Source: Methanosarcina thermophila TM-1 (GTDB taxonomy: Archaea > Halobacteriota > Methanosarcinia > Methanosarcinales > Methanosarcinaceae). Taken from it: a stretch of 64,000 bases of DNA. The first letter of the stretch is position 1, and each line of letters begins with the position of its first letter. The DNA is taken from the NCBI RefSeq assembly GCF_000969885.1, contig NZ_CP009501.1, forward strand, positions 496,001 to 560,000. The letters are read 5' to 3'. The notes under the pieces are model-generated. The model saw only the letters and a program-made list of their open reading frames with translations, was not told where the DNA came from and did no database searches. Shown one piece after another: positions 10,092-62,727 of this stretch. Position numbers and translations under genes: made by a program.

Positions 10092-11597
10092 TCAGGTGCT
10101 CCCGATTCCATGCAAGAGTTTTTCCATTACCCGATCAACGGTAAAGCTAGCTGCTTTCTGGCGCGGAGGGAATTCTTTAAACGTTGCCAGAAAATCACCA
10201 ACGACACTCTGGGCAGGCACCAGCAGGAAGGCATGATCGAGAAGCCAGTCATAATAGGTATTTGAAGTCTGATCCGCCCTTTCATAAGGATCGGTGCGCA
10301 GGTTGAATATTTTTGGTATGCGCAGCGGGACAAAAGGTTCAGCCCAGACCTGGAGCGTGCCGATGGCGCGCTGCTCCATAAAGACCATTTTCCAGTTATC
10401 GTACCTGAGAGCTACCAGGTCTCCATCGTCGGAGAAGTAAAAGAATTCAGTCCGTGGAGATTTTTCTTCCTTCCCAGTCAGGTAGGGAAGAAGATTATAA
10501 CCGTCAAGATGCACCTTGAAAGTTTTATCTCCTGCTTTGTAGCCTTTTTTGAGTTTTTCCTTAATATCCGGCTCTCCTGCTGCTGCAAGTAAAGTGGGCA
10601 GCCAATCAAGGTGGCTCACAATCTCGTTAGAAATTGTGCCTGCAGGGATCTTGCCATGCCAGCGCATTACCTCAGGAACACGGAAAGCTCCCTCCCAGCA
10701 GGAGTTTTTCTCGTTACGGAATGGGGTCATGGCTGCATCGGGCCATGAGTTCATATGTGGTCCGTTGTCCGTGCTGTAGATAACAATAGTATCATCCGCA
10801 ATGCCTATTTCGTCCAGCAGGTCGAGAAGCACGCCTACCTGCCGATCGTGCTCAATCATGGCGTCATGGTACGCGGATTGCCAGCGCCCCGACTGTCCCC
10901 GTATTCTTTCCGGGATGTGAGTCCTGAAATGCATTCTTGTGGTATTGAACCATAGAAAGAACGGCTTTTCCGCTTCATGCTGACGTTTGATAAAATCGAT
11001 GGCTGCATCCAGAAATTCTTGGTCTACTTCTTCCATTCTTTTTCTGGTCAATGGGCCAGTATCCTCGATGCGACCATCGGCATAGCTATGGATTACACCC
11101 CTTGGACCAAAATTCTTCCGGAAATTAGGAAAGTCTTTTTCAGGTGGATAATCGCGTAATTCAGGTTCCTCTTCAGCATTCAAATGGTAAAGGTTGCCGA
11201 AGAATTCGTCAAAACCGTGGTTGGTAGGCAAATATTCGTCCCGATCCCCGAGATGGTTCTTTCCAAACTGACCTGTGGCATAACCCAGGGGTTTCAGCAG
11301 TTCGGCGATTGTAGGGTCTTCAGGCTGAATTCCTACTTTGGCTCCTGGCATTCCCACCTTGCTCAACCCTGTACGGAAGACGCTCTGTCCTGTGATGAAA
11401 GCAGCTCTCCCGGCAGTACAGCTCTGCTCCCCGTAAGAGTCCGTAAACCTGATACCTTCGTTAGCTATCCGGTCAATATTCGGTGTTCCGTAGCCCATCA
11501 GACCGTCGCTGTAGCAACTGAGGTTGCTAATGCCAATATCATCTCCCCAGATGACCAGTATGTTTGGTTTCTTTTCTGTCATTTTCCTATTCCCCAT
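10092..11597 (-). CDS. Arylsulfatase-type sulfatase with CTAGR formylglycine motif
   Basis: 501-residue sulfatase of the alkaline-phosphatase superfamily, hydrolysing sulfate esters. Metal ligands of the fold are visible in the N-terminal GDDIG segment and in STDNGPH. The active-site motif is CTAGR with the cysteine near residue 60, to be oxidised to formylglycine; it fits the C/S-x-A/P-x-R rule for anaerobic maturases. GKNHLG supplies the usual Lys/His pair. There is no signal peptide, so the enzyme is predicted cytosolic, consistent with cytosolic maturation. It sits 12 bp after the maturase gene and before the HAD gene. An internal ATG five codons downstream is an alternative start. The natural substrate cannot be told from sequence. 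Confidence 0.92.
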   Translation of the reverse strand: MGNRKMTEKKPNILVIWGDDIGISNLSCYSDGLMGYGTPNIDRIANEGIRFTDSYGEQSCTAGRAAFITGQSVFRTGLSKVGMPGAKVGIQPEDPTIAELLKPLGYATGQFGKNHLGDRDEYLPTNHGFDEFFGNLYHLNAEEEPELRDYPPEKDFPNFRKNFGPRGVIHSYADGRIEDTGPLTRKRMEEVDQEFLDAAIDFIKRQHEAEKPFFLWFNTTRMHFRTHIPERIRGQSGRWQSAYHDAMIEHDRQVGVLLDLLDEIGIADDTIVIYSTDNGPHMNSWPDAAMTPFRNEKNSCWEGAFRVPEVMRWHGKIPAGTISNEIVSHLDWLPTLLAAAGEPDIKEKLKKGYKAGDKTFKVHLDGYNLLPYLTGKEEKSPRTEFFYFSDDGDLVALRYDNWKMVFMEQRAIGTLQVWAEPFVPLRIPKIFNLRTDPYERADQTSNTYYDWLLDHAFLLVPAQSVVGDFLATFKEFPPRQKAASFTVDRVMEKLLHGIGST

Positions 11598-11609
11598 TAA
11601 GTCTTATTT

Positions 11610-12902
11610 CTATCCACTTTTCCCCTGACCGTGACAGCGTTTGAACTTTTTCCCGCTTCCGCAGGGGCAGGGCTCATTGCGTCCGGTCTGCGCAAAGGCT
11701 TCTTCTAGGGCTATAACTCTCATAACTTCGGAAGCCGGATACCCCCTGCGTATCAGACCTGCCATGAGCTTCATAGGAAAATCGATATGATGGAAGAAAG
11801 CTTTCCAGCCCTTACAAAGGTAGTTCAGACCAGATTCCCCGGTAGAGGTGACAAGAAAGCGATTCTTTGGACATTCTCCCATACAGGCGAAAAGCACATC
11901 ACATTCACAGCATACCTTTGGTAGGGTGTTACGTTTATTCTTTCCAAACCTGTACTGCTTTTCCGAAGCAGCAAGTTCAGAGATCTCTTTCTCCATAATA
12001 TTGCCAAGCAGGTATTCAGGCTCTACAAAATGGTCGCATGAGTAAAGATCCCCATTGTGCTCCAGAACAAGCCCAGCTCCACATGTTTCTTCAAAAACAC
12101 ACATGCCTGAAGGCAGCCCTAGCCATCTTCGTACAGAAGCCTCAAAAGTCTGCACAAAGAGTTTTCCCACGTCATTTCTTACCCACTCGTCAAAAATGCG
12201 GCTAAGGAAGCTCCCAAACTGTTCTGGTTGCACCGAACGGTCTGAGACAGTATTCCCTTTCTGGTAAAGGGTGTATCCTTCCTCATTGATTCTCTCTACA
12301 ACTGGAATAAATTGAATCCAGTCTGCTCCTGCTTCATCTCGCAGGAAGCGGTAGACCTCAAGCGGATGATCGGCATTTATCCTGTTTACTGTTGTAAGGA
12401 CGTTGTATTCCACTCCGTGTTTTTGTAGGAGACGCAGCCCTCGCATGACCCGGTCAAAGCTCCCCTCCCCTTTTTTATCCACCCTGTAAATATTATGCAG
12501 TTCACGCGGACCATCTATGCTGATCCCTATGAGAAAATTGTTTTCCTTAAAAAACTGGCACCATTCATCGTCCAGCAGAGTGCCGTTGGTCTGCATTGTG
12601 TTTTCAAAATTCATGCCCGGTTTTCTGTACTTTTCCTGCAGTTCGATGGCACGCCGGTAAAAGTCTATTCCCATCAGAGTTGGCTCACCTCCCTGCCAAG
12701 CAACGGTTACCTGCGGGCTGCGGTGGGCTGTGATGAGCTGCCGGATGTAATTCTCCAGCACTTCGTCTGACATGCAGAACTTGCTACCTGGATAAAGAGC
12801 CTCTTTATCCAAAAAATAACAATAAGCACACGCCAGGTTGCAGATTGAACCGGTCGGTTTTGCCAGCACATGGATTCGAGGAGGTAGATAGTTTTGTGTC
12901 AT
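11610..12902 (-). CDS. Anaerobic sulfatase-maturating enzyme (radical SAM/SPASM) with SEC-C tail
   Basis: About 430 residues. The radical SAM cluster is C21xxxC25xxC28, followed by the GGEPT SAM-binding motif and the SIDGP segment typical of anSMEs. The SPASM region contains the auxiliary cysteines (GMCVFEETCG, YSCDH, CCECDVLFACMGECP, LCKGW). The C-terminus adds a zinc-binding SEC-C motif (EPCPCGSGKK). The enzyme oxidises the active-site Cys or Ser of sulfatases to formylglycine in the absence of oxygen. ATG 12902 has GGGAGTGG directly upstream; the frame opens 33 bp earlier but without a better start. First gene of the operon with its presumed client, the sulfatase at 10092-11597. Confidence 0.93.
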   Translation of the reverse strand: MTQNYLPPRIHVLAKPTGSICNLACAYCYFLDKEALYPGSKFCMSDEVLENYIRQLITAHRSPQVTVAWQGGEPTLMGIDFYRRAIELQEKYRKPGMNFENTMQTNGTLLDDEWCQFFKENNFLIGISIDGPRELHNIYRVDKKGEGSFDRVMRGLRLLQKHGVEYNVLTTVNRINADHPLEVYRFLRDEAGADWIQFIPVVERINEEGYTLYQKGNTVSDRSVQPEQFGSFLSRIFDEWVRNDVGKLFVQTFEASVRRWLGLPSGMCVFEETCGAGLVLEHNGDLYSCDHFVEPEYLLGNIMEKEISELAASEKQYRFGKNKRNTLPKVCCECDVLFACMGECPKNRFLVTSTGESGLNYLCKGWKAFFHHIDFPMKLMAGLIRRGYPASEVMRVIALEEAFAQTGRNEPCPCGSGKKFKRCHGQGKSG

Positions 12903-53907: not shown

Positions 53908-54426
53908 TCAGGTCTGCTTCACATTGACCTTTATCCTGAACTCAGTACCTTTATCCCTTTTCATTTTGATTTCGCCGCCCAGTTGATCAACGAGGATAGC
54001 TACAAGCTGTAAACCAAGCGTGTCCGGATTTTCGAAATCAATATTTTTGGGAATGCCCACTCCATTATCTGAAACTATGAGAGTATATACATTGCTTTTT
54101 TCGGCAAGCTGCCCTTTATTACTCTGTTCATCTACGGATTTTTCACTGGAAAGCTTAATTTGAATTATACCCTTCTCATCCCTGCCTGGAAACGCATGTT
54201 TGAAGGAATTGGATACAAGCTCATTAACTATCATTCCTAATGGGACCGCGGTATCAACATCAAAGAAAAGGTTTTCTTCCAGATCTATCTTCAAGCTAAT
54301 CCCAGCATTTCCAATCTTGTAAGTCTGGAAAAGATTTTCAATGAGTTTCTTAAGGTATATTGAGAAGTTGAGTTCGTTATCTCCTTCACCTTCATGCAGT
54401 TCCTCATGAATGAGTGCGATGGACAT
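53908..54426 (-). pseudogene. Histidine kinase A, C-terminal ATPase part
   Basis: 172 codons, the HATPase_c half of kinase A. N box VNELVSNSFKHAF, G1 box DNGVGIP, and G2-like DTLGLQL are all present. It follows the middle part after a 1-base insertion in a four-base C run (54444-54447, GGGG on the coding strand); removing one base restores the frame so that AAFR joins ESQDRVMSIALIHEE exactly as in the paralogue at 60356. The internal ATG at 54426 might allow separate synthesis, but an ATPase domain alone is not useful. Confidence 0.8.
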
Positions 54427-54751
54427 TACTCTGTCCTGGCTTTCCCCTGAAAGCGGCGAGAACTTCGGAATCCTTAATACATTTCCGATTATTGAATTTT
54501 TCAGCCTGAAGATCCAGCAGGGAAGAAATTACCTGAAGGTTATTCTTTATCCTGTGATGAATTTCCTTTTTACGGGCAATCTCAATTTTAGCAAGCATCT
54601 CTTCTGCTTTTTTGTGCTCAGTTATATCCCGAGCGACAGTTACTGATCCAATAATATTTCCACCTTTATCGTGCACCGGGGCAGCGCTTACCTGGCGGTA
54701 GCGTAACTTTCCATGGACAGGCATGCAAATTATCTCCTCTTCGTTCTTCAC
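54404..54751 (-). pseudogene. Histidine kinase A, HisKA_2 dimerisation part
   Basis: 115 codons carrying the last PAS end and the HisKA_2 segment (KEIHHRIKNNLQVISSLLDL) with the phospho-accepting His in HHRIKN. Frame is lost at both sides: an internal deletion toward the N-terminal part and a 1-nt insertion toward the ATPase part. PAS-tail sequence RYRQVSAAPVHD precedes it. Confidence 0.75.
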
Positions 54752-57200
54752 GACTTCGCCCTGCAGGGCACGTAGGATAGACTTTCACATTCTCTAGAAA
54801 CTTTTCCACCTCTATTTCTTTCCCGGGAGGGATGTAGAACTCACTGTATGCAGGAGGATTAATCAGGGTAAAGTTTTTCCGTGTATCTGCAAACCAGACT
54901 TCATCAGTAATACTGTTAATCAGTGCAGCCAGTCGGTCTTTCTCCTGCTGGATAGCACTGAGCAACCGTTCCCGCTCCTCTTCTGCCTGTTTACGCTCTG
55001 TAACGTCCTCAAATACTGCAACCAGTTCACCAGAGGGCAGCTTGTATACATAGTTAGTCACCCACAGGGCGATATTCTCATCTTTATAATATGTCGTAGG
55101 AAATGATTCCGGCTTTCCGGTCAGCCATACACGTCTAAATACTGCATCAAGTCCCATCTCACTTACATAAGGAAAAATTTCATAGAGGCTTTTTCCAACA
55201 ATGTTTTCCCGCCGGACGTGATTAATTTGCTCGCCAGCAGGATTCATATCCCTAAAGATGAAATCACGCCCGTCATCGATAACATCATAGATGACTACCC
55301 CACTTGATATGACCTCAAACAAGTTTCGGAAACGGGATTCGCTCACCTGCAGCTCTTTTTCAATCCGTTTGCGCTCGGTAATATCCTGCACTATCCCTCT
55401 CATTCGTACAGGGGTATTTTTCTCATCAAAAATAACCTCGGATTGCATATTGACTATACGTTCTTCTCCATTAGCCCGTATAATCCTGTAATCAGTACTG
55501 TAGAATTTGCCGCTTAATGCATCCTTAAGGGCATTATTTACATAGCCTCGATCTTCAGGATGCACATATTTTAAAAATTCATCATATTGTGGAGCTGGTT
55601 CTCGAAGATCACGCCCAAAAATAAGATACATCTCATGTGACCAGTATATCTTACCAGTTTCAATGTTCAAATCCCAATTTCCAAGGTGTGCTAACCTCTG
55701 AGCTTCAGCAAGACTTTCTTTACTTTCTTTCAATAAATTATAAGCCTTCTCAAGTTCAGCTGTACGTTCTTTAACCAGGTTCTCCAAATTATCCAGCGTT
55801 TCTCTCAATTTAGCTTCTGCTTCTTTCCGTGCAGTAATATCTGTGAGCATGCTCATAGAGCCTGTAAATTTGCCAGCGCTATCAAAAAGAGGTTTGGAGC
55901 TCACTATTGTCCATAAAGGTGAACCATTTTTGCGTATGAATTTAAACTCATAGCTCTCACTGATGCCCTGTCGTCTCCTTTCAATATACTTCTTAATAAT
56001 TGGTTTTTCTTCCTCGCTGACAAAGTCCCATGCGAATTTCCCGATTATCTCATCCTGAGTATATCCCAGTATCTCAGTCATTCTTTTATTGATGTATATC
56101 GTCCTCGCTTCAGAATCAACAATCCATATGCCTTCACTAGCTGTTTCCACAATAGTGCGGTATTTTTTCTCGCTCTCCCGGAGTGCTTCCTCAGCTTTCT
56201 TTCTCCCTGTTATATCTCTAAAAGTAGCTGCAACTTTCTCTTTATCAGGACTGAATACGTAAGTATCAAAGTACTTGTTCGTTACCCGACTGAAGATCTC
56301 AAAATGCTCGGGTTTGCCTGAGAGCACTGTTTCGCCGAATTTTTCAATCAATACAGGATTCACATTGGGAAGTATTTCCAGAATAGACTTACCCAGTATC
56401 TGCTCCCTTTTTAAGCCTGTACTGCGTTCATAAACAGGGTTTACCTCAAGGTAGCGATAGTCATACGGTTTACCACTCTTATCATAGATTACTTCTGCAA
56501 GTAAGAAACCCTCGGTCATGTTTGTGAAAAGCGTCCTGTAGCGCTTCTCGCTCTCTTGCAGTATCTCTTCTGTTTTTTTGTTCTCAATGATATCTGCAGT
56601 CTGCCGGGCAAGAATGTCAATCAACATTAGTTCGCGCTCAGACGGCGTATGAACGTGGTTGAAGTGGGTGGATATAATGCCCATAAATTGACCCGACCAG
56701 CTCACCATAGGTGTGGATTGAACGGCTCTTATTCCTTCATCCAGCAATATATTAAGTGCATTGCTTCCAAGGAAAACGGGACTTTGAGTAATGTCCTCAA
56801 CTACCACACGTTTCATCTGCTTCATTGCAGCTCCACATGTTGCTGCGTCCTCAGTGTCAACAAGTTCGAAAAACTTTAAAAACTGAGAGCTAAATCCTTT
56901 CTGGGCTACAATCTTTAATTTCCCAGTTGGTGGGTCGAGAATCTGTATGTTTCCTTTGTACGCCCTGGTAATTGCAATTGCAGCCTCAATTGTTTCCTGG
57001 AGAATCGAAAACAAATCTTTGCCTTCGATATATCGCATGCTCAATTTGTGGAGAATATTCGTGTCTCGAACCTCAGCTTCAAGTTTATCCCTGAGTTCAA
57101 TCAGCTCGTTCTTCAAGCGTCTGCATTCGAGAATCTCAGCGCGCAGTTTTTGATTGCTTTTGTCAGGCTCGTCAGCACCCAGGCGGTCAGACTTAGTCAT
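54666..57200 (-). CDS. Histidine kinase A, GAF/PAS sensor part (truncated)
   Basis: 844 codons. A GAF domain (about residues 45-210), then four PAS domains near 215-330, 340-460, 505-630 and 635-750, and a fifth cut off near 830. Coiled linkers with VKERTAELEKAY stand between. No signal or membrane segment, so a cytosolic sensor. At 54775-54785 the frame leaves at KVY and joins a ...ILRALQGE segment in a different frame, consistent with deletion of about 10 residues plus change of frame. The output domains therefore follow in other frames. Ligands unknown; related Methanosarcina kinases bind heme in GAF/PAS. Confidence 0.82.
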   Translation of the reverse strand: MTKSDRLGADEPDKSNQKLRAEILECRRLKNELIELRDKLEAEVRDTNILHKLSMRYIEGKDLFSILQETIEAAIAITRAYKGNIQILDPPTGKLKIVAQKGFSSQFLKFFELVDTEDAATCGAAMKQMKRVVVEDITQSPVFLGSNALNILLDEGIRAVQSTPMVSWSGQFMGIISTHFNHVHTPSERELMLIDILARQTADIIENKKTEEILQESEKRYRTLFTNMTEGFLLAEVIYDKSGKPYDYRYLEVNPVYERSTGLKREQILGKSILEILPNVNPVLIEKFGETVLSGKPEHFEIFSRVTNKYFDTYVFSPDKEKVAATFRDITGRKKAEEALRESEKKYRTIVETASEGIWIVDSEARTIYINKRMTEILGYTQDEIIGKFAWDFVSEEEKPIIKKYIERRRQGISESYEFKFIRKNGSPLWTIVSSKPLFDSAGKFTGSMSMLTDITARKEAEAKLRETLDNLENLVKERTAELEKAYNLLKESKESLAEAQRLAHLGNWDLNIETGKIYWSHEMYLIFGRDLREPAPQYDEFLKYVHPEDRGYVNNALKDALSGKFYSTDYRIIRANGEERIVNMQSEVIFDEKNTPVRMRGIVQDITERKRIEKELQVSESRFRNLFEVISSGVVIYDVIDDGRDFIFRDMNPAGEQINHVRRENIVGKSLYEIFPYVSEMGLDAVFRRVWLTGKPESFPTTYYKDENIALWVTNYVYKLPSGELVAVFEDVTERKQAEEERERLLSAIQQEKDRLAALINSITDEVWFADTRKNFTLINPPAYSEFYIPPGKEIEVEKFLENVKVYPTCPAGRSREERRGDNLHACPWKVTLPPGKRCPGAR

Positions 57201-57834
57201 AATTTTCCAGTCCTGATTTAAAATAAGAGACTAATAATATGATTTATCACATATTCTTTTGTCGAGCAAAGCTGGTAATAATTTGTTCCCACGAGATATT
57301 TTCTCCAGTAGCACGGGTACCATAAATTTAATGTTATTTTGCATATTTTATTACTACATTATAAAATATCTGATAAAAAATCCATGTCAAGTTGCTACTT
57401 TCTTTAAAGTGCAGCTTGTACACAAATTTATTTTCTAGCGTTTCAGATACATTTTCTCGGTGGATTTAATTTTATCTCTGATGCTTATAAATAATCAAAT
57501 AATTATCATATAGATATTAGTGATGAAACTGCATTAGTATTTATGCACAACTACGTGTCACTGCCGGAAAACTCTTGAGATAAAACTGAAGATTCTTGAG
57601 ATAAAATAAAACAGATTTGTTCGAATAAAACCCTGAGTTAAGATATGGTTAGTCAAATTTCTAAACTGTTCTGTTAATCTTGATTAAAAGCGTCAAAGTT
57701 TAAAAAGTGGTAAAAGTTTAAAAGTGGTAAAAGTTTAATCTGATAAGTCAACCATATGCAAACTCAGATTGAATGAAATATTAAGGAGGCGCGTAAATCC
57801 AGCTAATAAAGTGATGTTAAAAATAGCCAAAAAG

Positions 57835-57930
57835 CCACTGAACCCTTTTACTGTATCCCCCAGACAGTCTCTTCCAAGCTTATGCTCCCCCAAGCATACG
57901 GGCTTGAAGAAGGTTCAGTGACTTCCAGGC
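57835..57930. ncRNA. Twin-hairpin structured element, copy 1
   Basis: Perfect 9-bp closing stem CACTGAACC (57836-57844) with GGTTCAGTG (57912-57920). Inside: hairpin ACTGT/ACAGT with loop ATCCCCCAG, and a longer one CAAGC...GCTTG enclosing TATGC/GCATA with loop TCCCCCAA. The two C-rich loops are alike. It recurs at 62267-62370 with changed but still paired stems. Read on the minus strand the loops are TGGGGGA. Confidence 0.6.
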
Positions 57931-57980
57931 AATTTTTGTGTGGTAGATGATTCTACTTACCCCCTCACCCCCAACTTCTC

Positions 57981-58039
57981 AACTCCAGAATATACTAATA
58001 ACCTAAATTATTTTAAATTATTTATATCAAAAATTGTTT
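57981..58039. promoter_or_regulatory. 59-bp identical AT-rich segment, copy 1
   Basis: Identical over 59 bp to 62425-62483, both the same distance from the structured element. On the minus strand it has GATATAAAT as a TATA-like box; initiation about 25 nt on would run toward the structured element. Confidence 0.5.
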
Positions 58040-58108
58040 CCAAACAAATAATATTTTAAGGTAAAAAATTTCAAAACAAATATAGAATTTTCAGTTTAAC
58101 GAGATTGT

Positions 58109-59125
58109 TTATCTCGAGATATCGTTAAACTTGATAAAAAATTCTGTTCCCCGGTTTCTTCTAAGCTCTAGACAGCCTTCTATTTGTTCAACAAGAATAT
58201 TTACAAGCTGCAAGCCAAGAGAATCAGTGTTCCTAAAGTTTATTTCCTCAGGAATACCCTTTCCATTGTCTGCTACTGTGAGTGTGTACTGGAAATCTTT
58301 TTTCTGGCTACATGCGCTGTCTGCCCTGGAGACCTCTTTATTTACACCAAGGTCTTTTATTTTCTTTAAACTTATACTGATTTCCCATTTGTTCCCATTA
58401 GGGAAAGCATGTTTTAGAGAGTTTGTCACCAGTTCATTTACTATGATACCTAAAGGAATTGCAGTATCAAGACCAAGATAAATCTGCTCAAGATCCAGAT
58501 TAAGGCTGATATTCTTATGAATATTATAAGAGCTGAAAAGATCTGCAGTCAATTTCCTCAGGTAATCTCCAAACTCAAGGGTATCGATTTTATCCCCTTT
58601 ATATAATTCTTCGTGAATTAGAGCCATTGAAGCTATACGGTTCTGGCTTTCTTTGAAGGATTCGAGGATTATTGAATCAGTAAATTTCTCAGCTTCGAGG
58701 CTGAGCAAAGATGAGATAACCTGCAGATTATTTTTAATCCTGTGATGAATTTCTTTTACGCGCGTCTCCTCAATTTTTGCCAGGGCTTCTTCGGTTCGTT
58801 TGTGCTCTGTAATATCCTGAACTGTTCCAAACATTCGAGCAGGAAGATTTTTCTCGTCAAAAATAGTTTTGCCCTGTTCATGGACAATACGTTCCTCTCC
58901 ATTGTTAAGGATGAGCCGGTAATTAATATCGTAGGGTTTTCCTTCTAAAGCTTCCTTGATGGCATTATCTACATAATCTCTGTCATCAGGATGTACACAG
59001 CTTAAAAACATATCGTAAGTTACTTCAATTTCTTGAGGCTTAAATCCAAAAATACTATACAATTCATCAGACCAGTATCTTTCATTAGTAGCAATATCCC
59101 ATTCCCAGTTTCCAATGTGAGCCAT
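58109..59125 (-). pseudogene. Histidine kinase B, PAS/HisKA_2/ATPase part
   Basis: 338 codons: a PAS_3-type domain (HIGNWEWDIATNERYW), HisKA_2 (KEIHHRIKNNLQVISSLL) and HATPase_c (VNELVTNSLKHAF, DNGKGIP, DSLGLQL). It continues the upstream part (59020-60033) after a single-base loss near 59140: one more base there would join SREGL to AEAQRMAHIGNW, as in kinase A. The ATG at the start of this frame is internal to a PAS domain. Encodes the catalytic half of the sensor kinase. Confidence 0.8.
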
Positions 59126-60033
59126 TCTTTGAGCTTCAGCAAGCCTTCTCTACTTTCTTTCAAAGAATAATAAGCCTTTTCAAGTTCTTCTGTACGCTGT
59201 TTAACTTTTTCTTCTAAATCGTTACGCGCTTTTTTAAGGATTTTTTCTGCTTTTTTACGCTTGGTAATGTCAATGTCCATCTCGAGAATCATGGAGGAAC
59301 CATCAATATCGGTAAATGGGATATCATAAACATCAAGCACGCTTCCGTCTGGGGTGGTGACCTCCCAGTTGTGGGGCTGACCGGTTTCAAGTACTTTATA
59401 TGCCTCACAGAACTCACACGGTCCGGGGTTCCCAAAACAATACTCATAACAGTGCCTGCCTCTGGGCTCGCCGAACCTCTCACGAAGGTTGCGGTTGATT
59501 AAGGCAATGCGATGGTCAGGTGTTAACAGGGCTATCATTGCTGGCAGCTTATCCAGCACGTCTAAAAGCCTCTTTCTTTCAGCCTCCCTGGCTTCGGCAA
59601 CCTTGCGGCTTGATTCGCTCTCACAGAGTGCCATTTCAGCCTGTTTACGCTCAGTGACATCTCGCATAATAGCAACTACCCGTGGCTCTCCATTGGTATC
59701 GAAGAAGATGGAAGTGCTTACTTCTCCGGGAAAAGTAGTTCCGTCCTTGCGCCTGTAGGTAATCTCGGCTTTTGCTGCCCCGAAGCGTGCACGTTCATCT
59801 AACAGGCTAGACAATGATGGGTCTTCAGGGTCAAATAATATATCCTTCCACCCTTTTCCAATCAATTCTTCTTCTGTCCATCCAAGCATATGGCAAGCAG
59901 CTGGGTTAGCTGACAGGATTCTTCCACCCTTTTTTGGGTCAGTCAGCATAATACCATCCATGCTATGGTCGAATAGCATGCGGTACAGTTTCTCGCTTTC
60001 CTGCGATTTTTTATCTATGCTGTCACTTTTCAT
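59020..60033 (-). CDS. Histidine kinase B, sensor part with Cys-rich PAS (frameshifted)
   Basis: 337 codons from ATG 60033. A PAS domain (about 15-130) followed by a second PAS (about 165-280) that has an unusual Cys cluster, HCYEYCFGNPGPCEFC, four Cys in 13 residues, fit for metal or heme/redox sensing. Then a VKQRTEELEKAYY coiled linker. The frame shifts near 59140 just before the third PAS, so the last 20 residues of this frame are nonsense. Soluble. Broken partner follows. Confidence 0.82.
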   Translation of the reverse strand: MKSDSIDKKSQESEKLYRMLFDHSMDGIMLTDPKKGGRILSANPAACHMLGWTEEELIGKGWKDILFDPEDPSLSSLLDERARFGAAKAEITYRRKDGTTFPGEVSTSIFFDTNGEPRVVAIMRDVTERKQAEMALCESESSRKVAEAREAERKRLLDVLDKLPAMIALLTPDHRIALINRNLRERFGEPRGRHCYEYCFGNPGPCEFCEAYKVLETGQPHNWEVTTPDGSVLDVYDIPFTDIDGSSMILEMDIDITKRKKAEKILKKARNDLEEKVKQRTEELEKAYYSLKESREGLLKLKEWLTLETGNGILLLMKDTGLMNCIVFLDLSLKKLK

Positions 60034-60355
60034 ATTCCTGTCCTTCCAGAGATAAAAAAGCTAAAATTTTCTCTCAGGTTTTGTTTTATTCTACTATGTA
60101 CTTACCACATTTTAAAGTAATCTACAAAGATTTATTTTATATTTTAACATTTATATTATATAATTTATATAAACCGTTTCCGAATAAATATTTTTTATAT
60201 TCAGCAGAAAAAGCCTTTTTATAACTTTGTATACCTAACAATATTTTTATAATCCAATTAAAATGATAGATTCACTCCAGAGGACAGCAAATTCATTTTT
60301 TTCATTCACAGAGGTTTAATGTTGCTGGTTTGCTGTTCAGGCACATAAATCGTGA
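60034..60355. other. Intergenic gap between kinases B and C
   Basis: About 320 bp of AT-rich DNA, with a TATA-like run near 60150-60180 that may serve kinase B. No copy of the structured element is seen here, unlike upstream of kinases A and C. Confidence 0.45.
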
Positions 60356-61877
60356 TTAACGTGGTTCTACACTGAACCCTATTTTAAATGTAGTGCCTCT
60401 ATTCTTTATTAGCTCGATTTCACCATCTAACTGATCTACCAGGACATTTACAAGTTGCAAGCCAAGTGTATCTGGATTCTCAAAATTAATTTCCTGGGGA
60501 ATACCAACTCCACTATCTGAAATTGCGAGAGTATATCGGGTACTGGTTCCGGGAACGTTCTCTCTATTGTCGTTCAGTTTATGTCCTGTTCTTTTACTGG
60601 AGAGTTTAATTTGAATTATTCCTTTATCCCTATCTGGGAATGCATATTTTAAGGAGTTTGAGACAAGTTCGTTAACAATCATTCCCAGGGGAACTGCCGT
60701 GTCCATATCAAAGAAAATATTTTTTTCCACATCCATAATCAAGTTGACATCAACATTTTCAATCCTGTATATCCGGAAGAGGTTCTCAACGAGCCTTTCA
60801 AGGTAAGGCGAAAAATTAAGCGTGTTCCTTTCTTCACTTTTGTGCAGTTCTTCATGGATGAGTGCAATGGACATTACCCTGTACTGGCTTTCCTTAAAAG
60901 CGGCGAGAACTTCGGAATCCTTAATACATTCCCGATTATTGAATTTTTCAGCCTGAAGATCCAGAAGAGAAGAGATTACCTGAAGGTTATTCTTTATCCT
61001 GTGATGAATTTCTTTATTACGGATAGCCTCTATTTTTTTAAGGGTGTCCTCTGCAATTCTTCTCTCAGTGATATCATAAATAGTTCCACGGTATTTATCA
61101 TCTCCCCCGTCTTTTTCCTGGAATTTATGGTAACGAAGATGCACCCATCTTTTTCTGCCATTTTTATCTAATATACGAAAGTCTAACTTTCTGGATAAAT
61201 TATATGGAGAAGTTTGAATACGTTCGATATCGACAATAACAAGCGGCTTGTCATCAGGATGGATAAGGTCTAACCACAAAACCTGCCCGGAGAGGAATTC
61301 TTTTTCGCTATATCCGGTAATTTCCTCGACTCTCCCATGCATGAATTCCGGGAAAAGGTTCTCATCTAATTGGAAAGCGATCCCATCAAATTTCTGTATA
61401 AATGAGCGGTATTTTTCCTCACTGACCTTCAGTTTCTCTTCAGTAAGTTTTCTTTCAGTGATATCTTTAATAATTCCAAAAACTCTATTTACATTACCAT
61501 TTTCATCTTTCAGACAGACTACGTCTTCTTCTACCCAAATATAATTTTTATTTGCTTCCATAATTCTGTATTCCAGCTGGAAATTTTCTCCTTTTTCCAG
61601 ATACTTCCCAAAATCCTCCCAGATTTTATTACATTCTTCTGGATGAATCTGATTTAGCCAAACCTGAGTATCTACACTTTCTAAATCTTCTAATTCACAC
61701 CCCATAAGTTCTCTGGTGGCTCCTAACCAGAAAATCTTTCCATTTTCAATGTCCTATTCATATACAAGCTGTTTCGTTTGCTTCATGACAATGCGGTATA
61801 TTTCTTCTTTTTTTCGAAGCTTCTCACAGAAAGGACTTCTCGAAGTAACATTTTTTACTATTAGAATCCACTCCATC
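60356..61877 (-). pseudogene. Histidine kinase C, with amber codon and 5' frameshift
   Basis: PAS (about residues 50-140 of the continuous frame), a second PAS with FLSGQVLWLDLIHPDD, then HisKA_2 (KEIHHRIKNNLQVISSLLDL) and HATPase_c (VNELVSNSLKYAF, DSGVGIP, DTLGLQL). The clean frame is 60356-61705, but the homology (RKKEEIYRIVMKQTKQLVYE, then DIENGKIFW) continues upstream to about 61840 with only an in-frame TAG at 61754-61756, where related kinases carry Tyr. The ATG at 61877, behind GAGGTCAG, is in another frame, so a 1-base shift near 61860 is also needed. Either doubly broken, or translated from an internal start. Confidence 0.75.
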
Positions 61878-62186
61878 CTGACCTCTTTTCGTTTTTATGA
61901 AAAATAATGAATTCAGAGAACTTTATTACTCCGATTAAATTTAAAAATCTGAAATGTTATAAAACTATTGAGCTTATGTAAGAAAATTATATATGAGCGT
62001 TTAAATTATTTCCTGATTTTCCAATTTATGTTTAAAACATAAAATATGTGAAAAAAGTTGAACATATATAGTAATAGTTAAAGAGTGAAACGTGAAAGCA
62101 GAATAGAATGCATGACTCACGAATTGAAATAACGTCAGAGTAAACCAATACTATTATAATTTTGTTTTTGCTTTCTTCTCTGCTGT

Positions 62187-62264
62187 AAAGATATGGTAAA
62201 AAGACAGTAAAAGTAGTATAAGAAGAAAGATATGGTAAAAAGACAGTAAAAGTAGTATAAGAAG
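62187..62264. repeat. 39-bp tandem duplication
   Basis: Unit starting aaagatatggtaaaaagac, two copies exactly adjacent (62187-62225, 62226-62264), essentially identical, directly bordering the structured element. Confidence 0.85.
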
Positions 62265-62266
62265 AA

Positions 62267-62370
62267 GCCTGGAGGCACTGGATCCCTTTACTGTATCCCC
62301 CAATACAGTTCTTTGAAACTTATGCTCCCCCAAATATGCCGATTCAAAGAAGAATCAGCGACCTCCAGGC
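62267..62370. ncRNA. Twin-hairpin structured element, copy 2
   Basis: Closing stem GCCTGGAGG (62267-62275) with CCTCCAGGC (62362-62370), perfect. Inside: ACTGTAT/ATACAGT with loop CCCCCA, and CTTTGAA/TTCAAAG enclosing a second GCTCCCCCAA loop. Relative to copy 1 the second stem has changed from CAAGC/GCTTG to TGAA/TTCA, so both sides changed together. Confidence 0.6.
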
Positions 62371-62424
62371 GATTCTTTAGTGTGGTAGAATATCCCCACA
62401 CCCCATTCCCCTATTAGACTTCCC

Positions 62425-62483
62425 AACTCCAGAATATACTAATAACCTAAATTATTTTAAATTATTTATATCAAAAATTGTTT
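62425..62483. promoter_or_regulatory. 59-bp identical AT-rich segment, copy 2
   Basis: Same 59 bp as 57981-58039. Here it is upstream of the structured element with respect to kinase C on the minus strand. Confidence 0.5.
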
Positions 62484-62727
62484 TCAGGCAAAAAATTGTT
62501 TGATATAAAACTTTAATGTATGATACGATAGATGCATGTATTCTATTTATATGGTTTATTATTTTTAATAACACTAAAATTTTTAATATTATATACTTTT
62601 TCGATTATATCAAAAATCTAAATCCGAAAGAATGTTTTGTATAGATTATGATATATATAACTGGCTCATTATAAATGTATAGATTAAGAGTTATAGGGTT
62701 TCATCTTAATCTTTGGGTTGGATCGCA

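Follow-up and report, generated by a model that had tools for sequence, protein, structure and literature searches.

Two structured elements in the window

The window considered here, a 64,000-nucleotide stretch of the Methanosarcina thermophila TM-1 genome (positions 496001–560000 of a single contig of 3,127,379 bases), contains two structured elements that lie beside genes encoding PAS/HisKA_2 kinases and LysE, the identity of both being confirmed by Pfam. All three of these kinase genes, which are on the minus strand (53908–57200, 58109–60033 and 60356–61870), look broken: kinase domains are split over overlapping ORFs in differing frames (54666–57200, 54404–54751 and 53908–54426; 59020–60033 and 58109–59125), and elsewhere a late start follows an upstream stop.

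Both elements are found where an initial annotation of the window had placed them. In the first (copy 1), a 9-bp closing stem (CACTGAACC/GGTTCAGTG) can be seen around two hairpins whose plus-strand loops carry CCCCC, just as that annotation had described. The minimum free energy of copy 1 is −32.0 kcal/mol compared with −19.4 ± 2.9 for shuffled sequences (z = −4.4, with none of 200 shuffles equalling it), and for the second element (copy 2, 62267–62370) z is −5.8 for the plus-strand fold and −4.8 for its minus-strand counterpart. The window has exactly two instances of the twin motif TCCCCCA...TGCTCCCCCA, and 100 shuffles give none. Pairwise alignment of the two copies reveals a likeness that runs beyond the hairpins into an identical block of 57 bp. 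The extent originally given for copy 1 (57835–57930) has the site right but the size wrong, the core occupying 57826–57933 and the associated promoter block reaching to about 58040.

The copy 1 core (57826–57933, minus strand; 553826–553933 in the genome) comprises a long closing helix (P1), a three-way junction and two hairpins (P2 and P3), each with the loop UGGGGG, and is defined by its fold together with a match of 86.1 bits (E = 5e-18) to the covariance model described below (R1). Upstream of it on the same strand lies a conserved promoter block, AAACAATTTTTGATATAAATAATTTAAAATAATTTAGGTTATT (57997–58040), that shows zero mismatches to that of copy 2 and includes a TATA-like box, TTTAAAATA, at about 58009–58017. 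The predicted copy 1 transcript would be ~170 nt in length (57815–57986, minus strand), as judged from sequence, promoter spacing and folding (z = −3.8), its start being placed at ~57986, 27 nt from the centre of the TATA-like box, and its end in a T-tract past P1. Copy 2 has the same architecture, although its apical P2 stem is weak when folded; its core lies at 62267–62373 on the minus strand (R1 match of 104.3 bits, E = 1e-22) and its promoter block, supported also by the genome-wide promoter sites, at 62441–62484. By the same 27-nt spacing to the TTTAAAATA box, the copy 2 transcript would start at ~62430 and extend for ~180 nt (62250–62430, minus strand), both ends being predicted. Just downstream of copy 2, in the predicted direction of transcription, a direct repeat, aagatatggtaaaaagacagtaaaagtagtataagaag, is present twice in tandem (62185–62270).

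A multicopy family in Methanosarcina

When the DNA of the window copies was used as query, many more sites came to light, both in M. thermophila itself and across 29 of the 31 Methanosarcina genomes. The covariance model R1 was built from 24 copies using a MAFFT alignment (A3) and one hand-written structure (P1, P2 with an internal loop, and P3). The initial annotation would have been undermined by a covariance search that recovered the two window sites only; the outcome was the opposite, with R1 matching in all 31 Methanosarcina genomes at 1–22 copies per genome, about 245 when the table is summed. The M. thermophila genome has about 12 of these, and all four genomes of a sister genus have matches (20 copies). 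R1 gave zero matches in the rest of the family (112 genomes) and among 200 genomes sampled from the class, these larger sets being searched with stricter Infernal filters that distant, weak relatives could escape. The exact twin-loop pattern, sought in 84,980 species genomes, was found on 28 contigs, nearly all of them from Methanosarcina, together with one from Methanosarcinaceae and one Euryarchaeota bin. Viral contigs, plasmids and phages yielded zero family matches.

The initial annotation had proposed an Rfam scan; neither copy is matched in Rfam 15: the window lacks a gathering-level match, and a lax search of 57700–62600 returned only a 14.5-bit chance match to tmRNA, outside both copies. 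Literature searches turned up no account of this family, although single members may well sit in published M. mazei RNA-seq lists.

The suggestion that differences between the stems of the two copies are paired holds across the family, one apical stem in copy 2 being weak. In A3, which is unfitted to any structure model, both sides have changed in 23 of 39 base pairs; none of 500 shuffles matches the observed covariation score, and sliding the partners by 1–3 columns reduces it to about one third or less. In a second alignment (A4) of 120 distinct copies fitted to R1, both-side changes are seen in 35 of the 39 pairs, standard pairs fill 92.5% of cells and covariation scores 0.362; shuffling lowers this to 0.234 and sliding to 0.095 or less. 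The unfitted alignment matters because the R1-fitted A4 leans towards the structure. An additional outer helix (AAGAA/UUCUU), plausible by eye, was rejected, 397 of 500 partner shuffles being as good. Neither linker nor core keeps to one reading frame, their lengths falling in all three, and the longest ORFs have a median of only 33 amino acids; a coding RNA was rejected on these grounds, the RNA being very unlikely to serve as a message.

Family-wide covariation therefore bears out the original idea of a small structured RNA whose changes are compensated. Comparison shows the window pair to be sibling genes of a non-coding RNA family whose members would stand alone, and we consider it highly probable, on comparative grounds, that this is a family of independently transcribed structured RNAs. 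Its members are probably decoy or regulatory RNAs.

Genomic context and age

For 111 of the 120 copies, the nearest relative sits in another genome, a count that describes a tendency rather than a census since the set was picked by BLAST hits. The same flanking genes recur between species: porB together with a UPF0210-like gene at 9–10 loci, exonuclease III at seven, LysE at six, prenyl-diphosphate synthase at six and kinase-like ORFs at 19, where the names, LysE and the kinases excepted, come from reading the sequences. In 11 Methanosarcina and three sister-genus genomes, tandem arrays adjoin tRNA-Gln(UUG) and are transcribed away from the tRNA. These loci include L177 (in the sister genus), L094, L043, L055 and L107, positions 11447–12513 of which form the M. 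thermophila array (genome 2155446–2156512); one sister-genus array has six copies within 3 kb, with a promoter on each. The tRNA-Gln(UUG) array is probably the ancestral locus, to judge from this distribution. Two diverged cores in tandem, with one recognisable promoter, are seen at L009/L107 3029–3250 (genome 2147028–2147249).

The proximity to PAS kinases, on which the initial annotation had remarked, is incidental. Only a minority of the loci have kinase-type ORFs as neighbours; other orthologous loci adjoin porB/UPF0210, exonuclease III, LysE, prenyl-diphosphate synthase or tRNA-Gln.

Strand, promoter and T-rich flank

RNA tolerates G:U pairs, and the same change read on the opposite strand appears as A:C. 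When the family structure is read on the minus strand, A3 has 118 cells of G:U and 24 of A:C, and A4 has 571 and 126, respectively, counts to which drawing the structure on the minus strand lends a mild bias. At one locus, the minus-strand model scores 57.8 bits on its own strand against 15.7 on the other.

A promoter consensus, CAATTTTTGATATAATTAATTTAAAATAATTTA, is present in 116 of 118 minus-strand upstream flanks and in 5–6 downstream flanks, compared with 19 of 118 chance matches in shuffled upstream sequence of preserved A+T richness. The promoter block lies 57–89 nt ahead of the core in nearly all copies. Allowing up to three mismatches, the pattern occurs at 11 sites in the 3.1-Mb M. 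thermophila genome, against zero for a reversed control, and ten of these precede an R1 match. At the eleventh (2298123), what follows is a degenerate remnant (L184) that has kept the promoter and closing stem but lost hairpin P3 and its G-loop. One more M. thermophila copy (L011) has a more diverged promoter. The 3' flank of the core is 50% T; archaeal termination relies on U-tracts (PMC8716108).

Taken together, the G:U bias, the upstream promoter and the T-rich 3' flank point to the minus strand as the RNA, so that the G-loop strand most likely forms its own transcription unit and exposes loops of UGGGGG, not CCCCC. The C-rich plus-strand loops proposed initially thus find no support, and the masking of G-rich ribosome sites that had been suggested for them fails, since the functional loops are G-rich.

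Loops and possible targets

The UGGGGG loop is found in P2 in 81 of 120 copies and in P3 in 80 of 120. Most of the remaining loops are G-rich variants and some P2 loops are altered (UGAUGGG, UGGGGA), the motif not being absolute. Mean identity among the M. thermophila copies is 54%, and against this background the loops are conspicuous as the part of the RNA that stays constant. The 5' tail, which is unpaired, varies between copies.

To look at potential targets, we used 474 genes with computed start sites from a 684-kb sample (about one fifth of the M. thermophila genome). In this sample the loop complement TCCCCCA is present in none of the 474 leaders, where permutations predict about one; nor does any leader contain the conserved-tail complement, CCCAACTCC. 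That these leaders lack TCCCCCA makes it less likely that the loops share a C-rich target in leaders, and leaves a common partner able to recognise G-rich loops, for which a protein or the ribosome would be the simplest candidate. Shine-Dalgarno windows of the same genes contain GGGGG in 16 cases and GGAGG in 44. Besides the window copies, the 684-kb sample has only one hairpin with a TGGGGG loop and so yielded no mRNA hairpins that might compete for a loop-binding protein.

Comparison with known RNAs

The bacterial CsrB/CsrC and RsmX/Y/Z RNAs are stand-alone, sometimes multicopy decoys that titrate an RNA-binding protein through G-rich, Shine-Dalgarno-like motifs in hairpin loops. The family carries a repeated loop motif (roughly two thirds of the 120 copies have UGGGGG in both loops, with G-rich variants in most others), which a protein may recognise. 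Unlike the bacterial decoys, it is archaeal and unrelated in sequence, its motif is UGGGGG rather than A(N)GGA, and it has only two motif hairpins, set on a closed three-way junction. We know of no CsrA in archaea.

Closer to home, the M. mazei sRNA162 measures 191 nt and has three separate stem loops, with 39 nt of linker joining SL2 to SL3; it is reported as one gene in both M. acetivorans and M. barkeri and as two copies in M. mazei, where the second is sRNA171, with homologues only in these species (PMC3510493). The family resembles this pair in several ways: its RNAs are intergenic in Methanosarcina and comparable in length, contain stem loops and an extended single-stranded linker, have a promoter of their own and include paralogues with compensatory changes. 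By published description, however, it differs from sRNA162 in that its linker lies 5' of one closed three-way junction with two hairpins, and in having 1–22 copies in each of 31 genomes. M. mazei sRNA154 is described as a nitrogen-controlled RNA of 130 nt, encoded by a single gene with the NrpR operator GGTA-N6-TACC and using one loop as an anti-RBS (PMC5867862, PMC3177094). Judged against this description, the family shares with sRNA154 conservation across the genus and two functional loops, but neither its size nor its copy number nor its promoter operator, GGTA-N6-TACC being found upstream of none of the 120 copies and nowhere in the window. Another M. mazei RNA, sRNA41, is reported to mask ribosome sites (summarised in PMC5867862), whereas the G-loops of the family are not anti-Shine-Dalgarno sequences. 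In those published features that could be compared, the family matches neither sRNA162 nor sRNA154. The C/D box guide RNA boxes RUGAUGA and CUGA are together found in none of the 120 cores.

Possible functions

The best explanation, which we advance tentatively, is that the RNAs act as decoys for a protein that binds G-rich RNA, or for the translation machinery. Each gene, with its own conserved archaeal promoter, would be transcribed from the minus strand to give an RNA of ~170–180 nt, predicted to consist of a purine-rich and mostly unpaired 5' tail, the closed three-way junction and a T-rich terminator region. Both hairpins would present UGGGGG, in imitation of GGGGG and GGAGG Shine-Dalgarno sites, to one common partner, most likely a protein that binds RNA of this G-rich, Shine-Dalgarno-like type (or else the translation machinery). 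A common loop partner is likely because stems and tails have drifted while loops and promoter have stayed fixed in ancient paralogues scattered across the genome. Under one shared regulator, the sibling RNAs would then titrate this partner in the manner of bacterial CsrB/RsmZ-type decoys.

It is also possible, if somewhat doubtful, that the siblings are base-pairing sRNAs acting in trans, each copy using its purine-rich 5' tail and/or G-loops on pyrimidine-rich mRNA stretches in private targets. The M. mazei sRNA162, which pairs via its single-stranded linker and 5' end, offers a precedent (PMC3510493), the 5' tail of the family is unpaired and variable between copies, and many diverged copies would fit many targets. 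The constancy of the loops in ancient paralogues, however, fits a common partner better than private ones, and both TCCCCCA and CCCAACTCC are missing from the 474 leaders (a search that covered leaders, not coding regions). A cis-acting leader or riboswitch is improbable: some loci do face a same-strand gene, such as porB at 173–319 nt, but the downstream genes vary by locus and are often on the opposite strand (exonuclease III, seven loci), copies in tandem arrays each have their own promoter and a T-rich, terminator-like stretch follows the structure.

The plus-strand RNA originally envisaged, with CCCCC loops masking G-rich ribosome sites, is disfavoured and highly improbable. The plus-strand fold is stable too and GGGGG-type Shine-Dalgarno sites do occur (16 of 474), but G:U outnumbers A:C by about five to one in favour of the minus strand, the sole conserved promoter reads that strand, with no such element on the other side, and the bit scores of the two strands at one locus tell the same way. 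A repeat acting as DNA, such as a mobile element, a MITE or a site of recombination or cruciform formation, would account for many copies per genome, inverted repeats and some tandem arrays, yet it too is disfavoured, to the point of being scarcely credible: the copies are old and syntenic, with conserved flanks and relatives mostly in other genomes, mobile DNA (viral, plasmid or phage) gave no match, and the G:U bias and fixed promoter-to-core spacing point to RNA.

Perspective

Because the family is missing from Rfam 15, routine annotation of Methanosarcina genomes overlooks its copies. The Methanosarcina sRNAs described so far are antisense regulators present in one or two copies, and few archaeal sRNAs have known functions. 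A family of ~245 copies in 31 Methanosarcina genomes, with its own promoter and strongly conserved loops, presents a clear target for study in the tractable M. mazei and M. acetivorans, and could reveal a new RNA-binding regulator together with a dedicated transcription factor. Taken further, the decoy reading would describe a genus-wide, protein-titrating system in which around a dozen sibling decoys per cell, each with two identical Shine-Dalgarno-like G-loops, share one dedicated promoter element. We regard this wider proposal as rather unlikely but, if true, it would be the first case known to us of an archaeal system equivalent to the Csr/Rsm decoys of bacteria.
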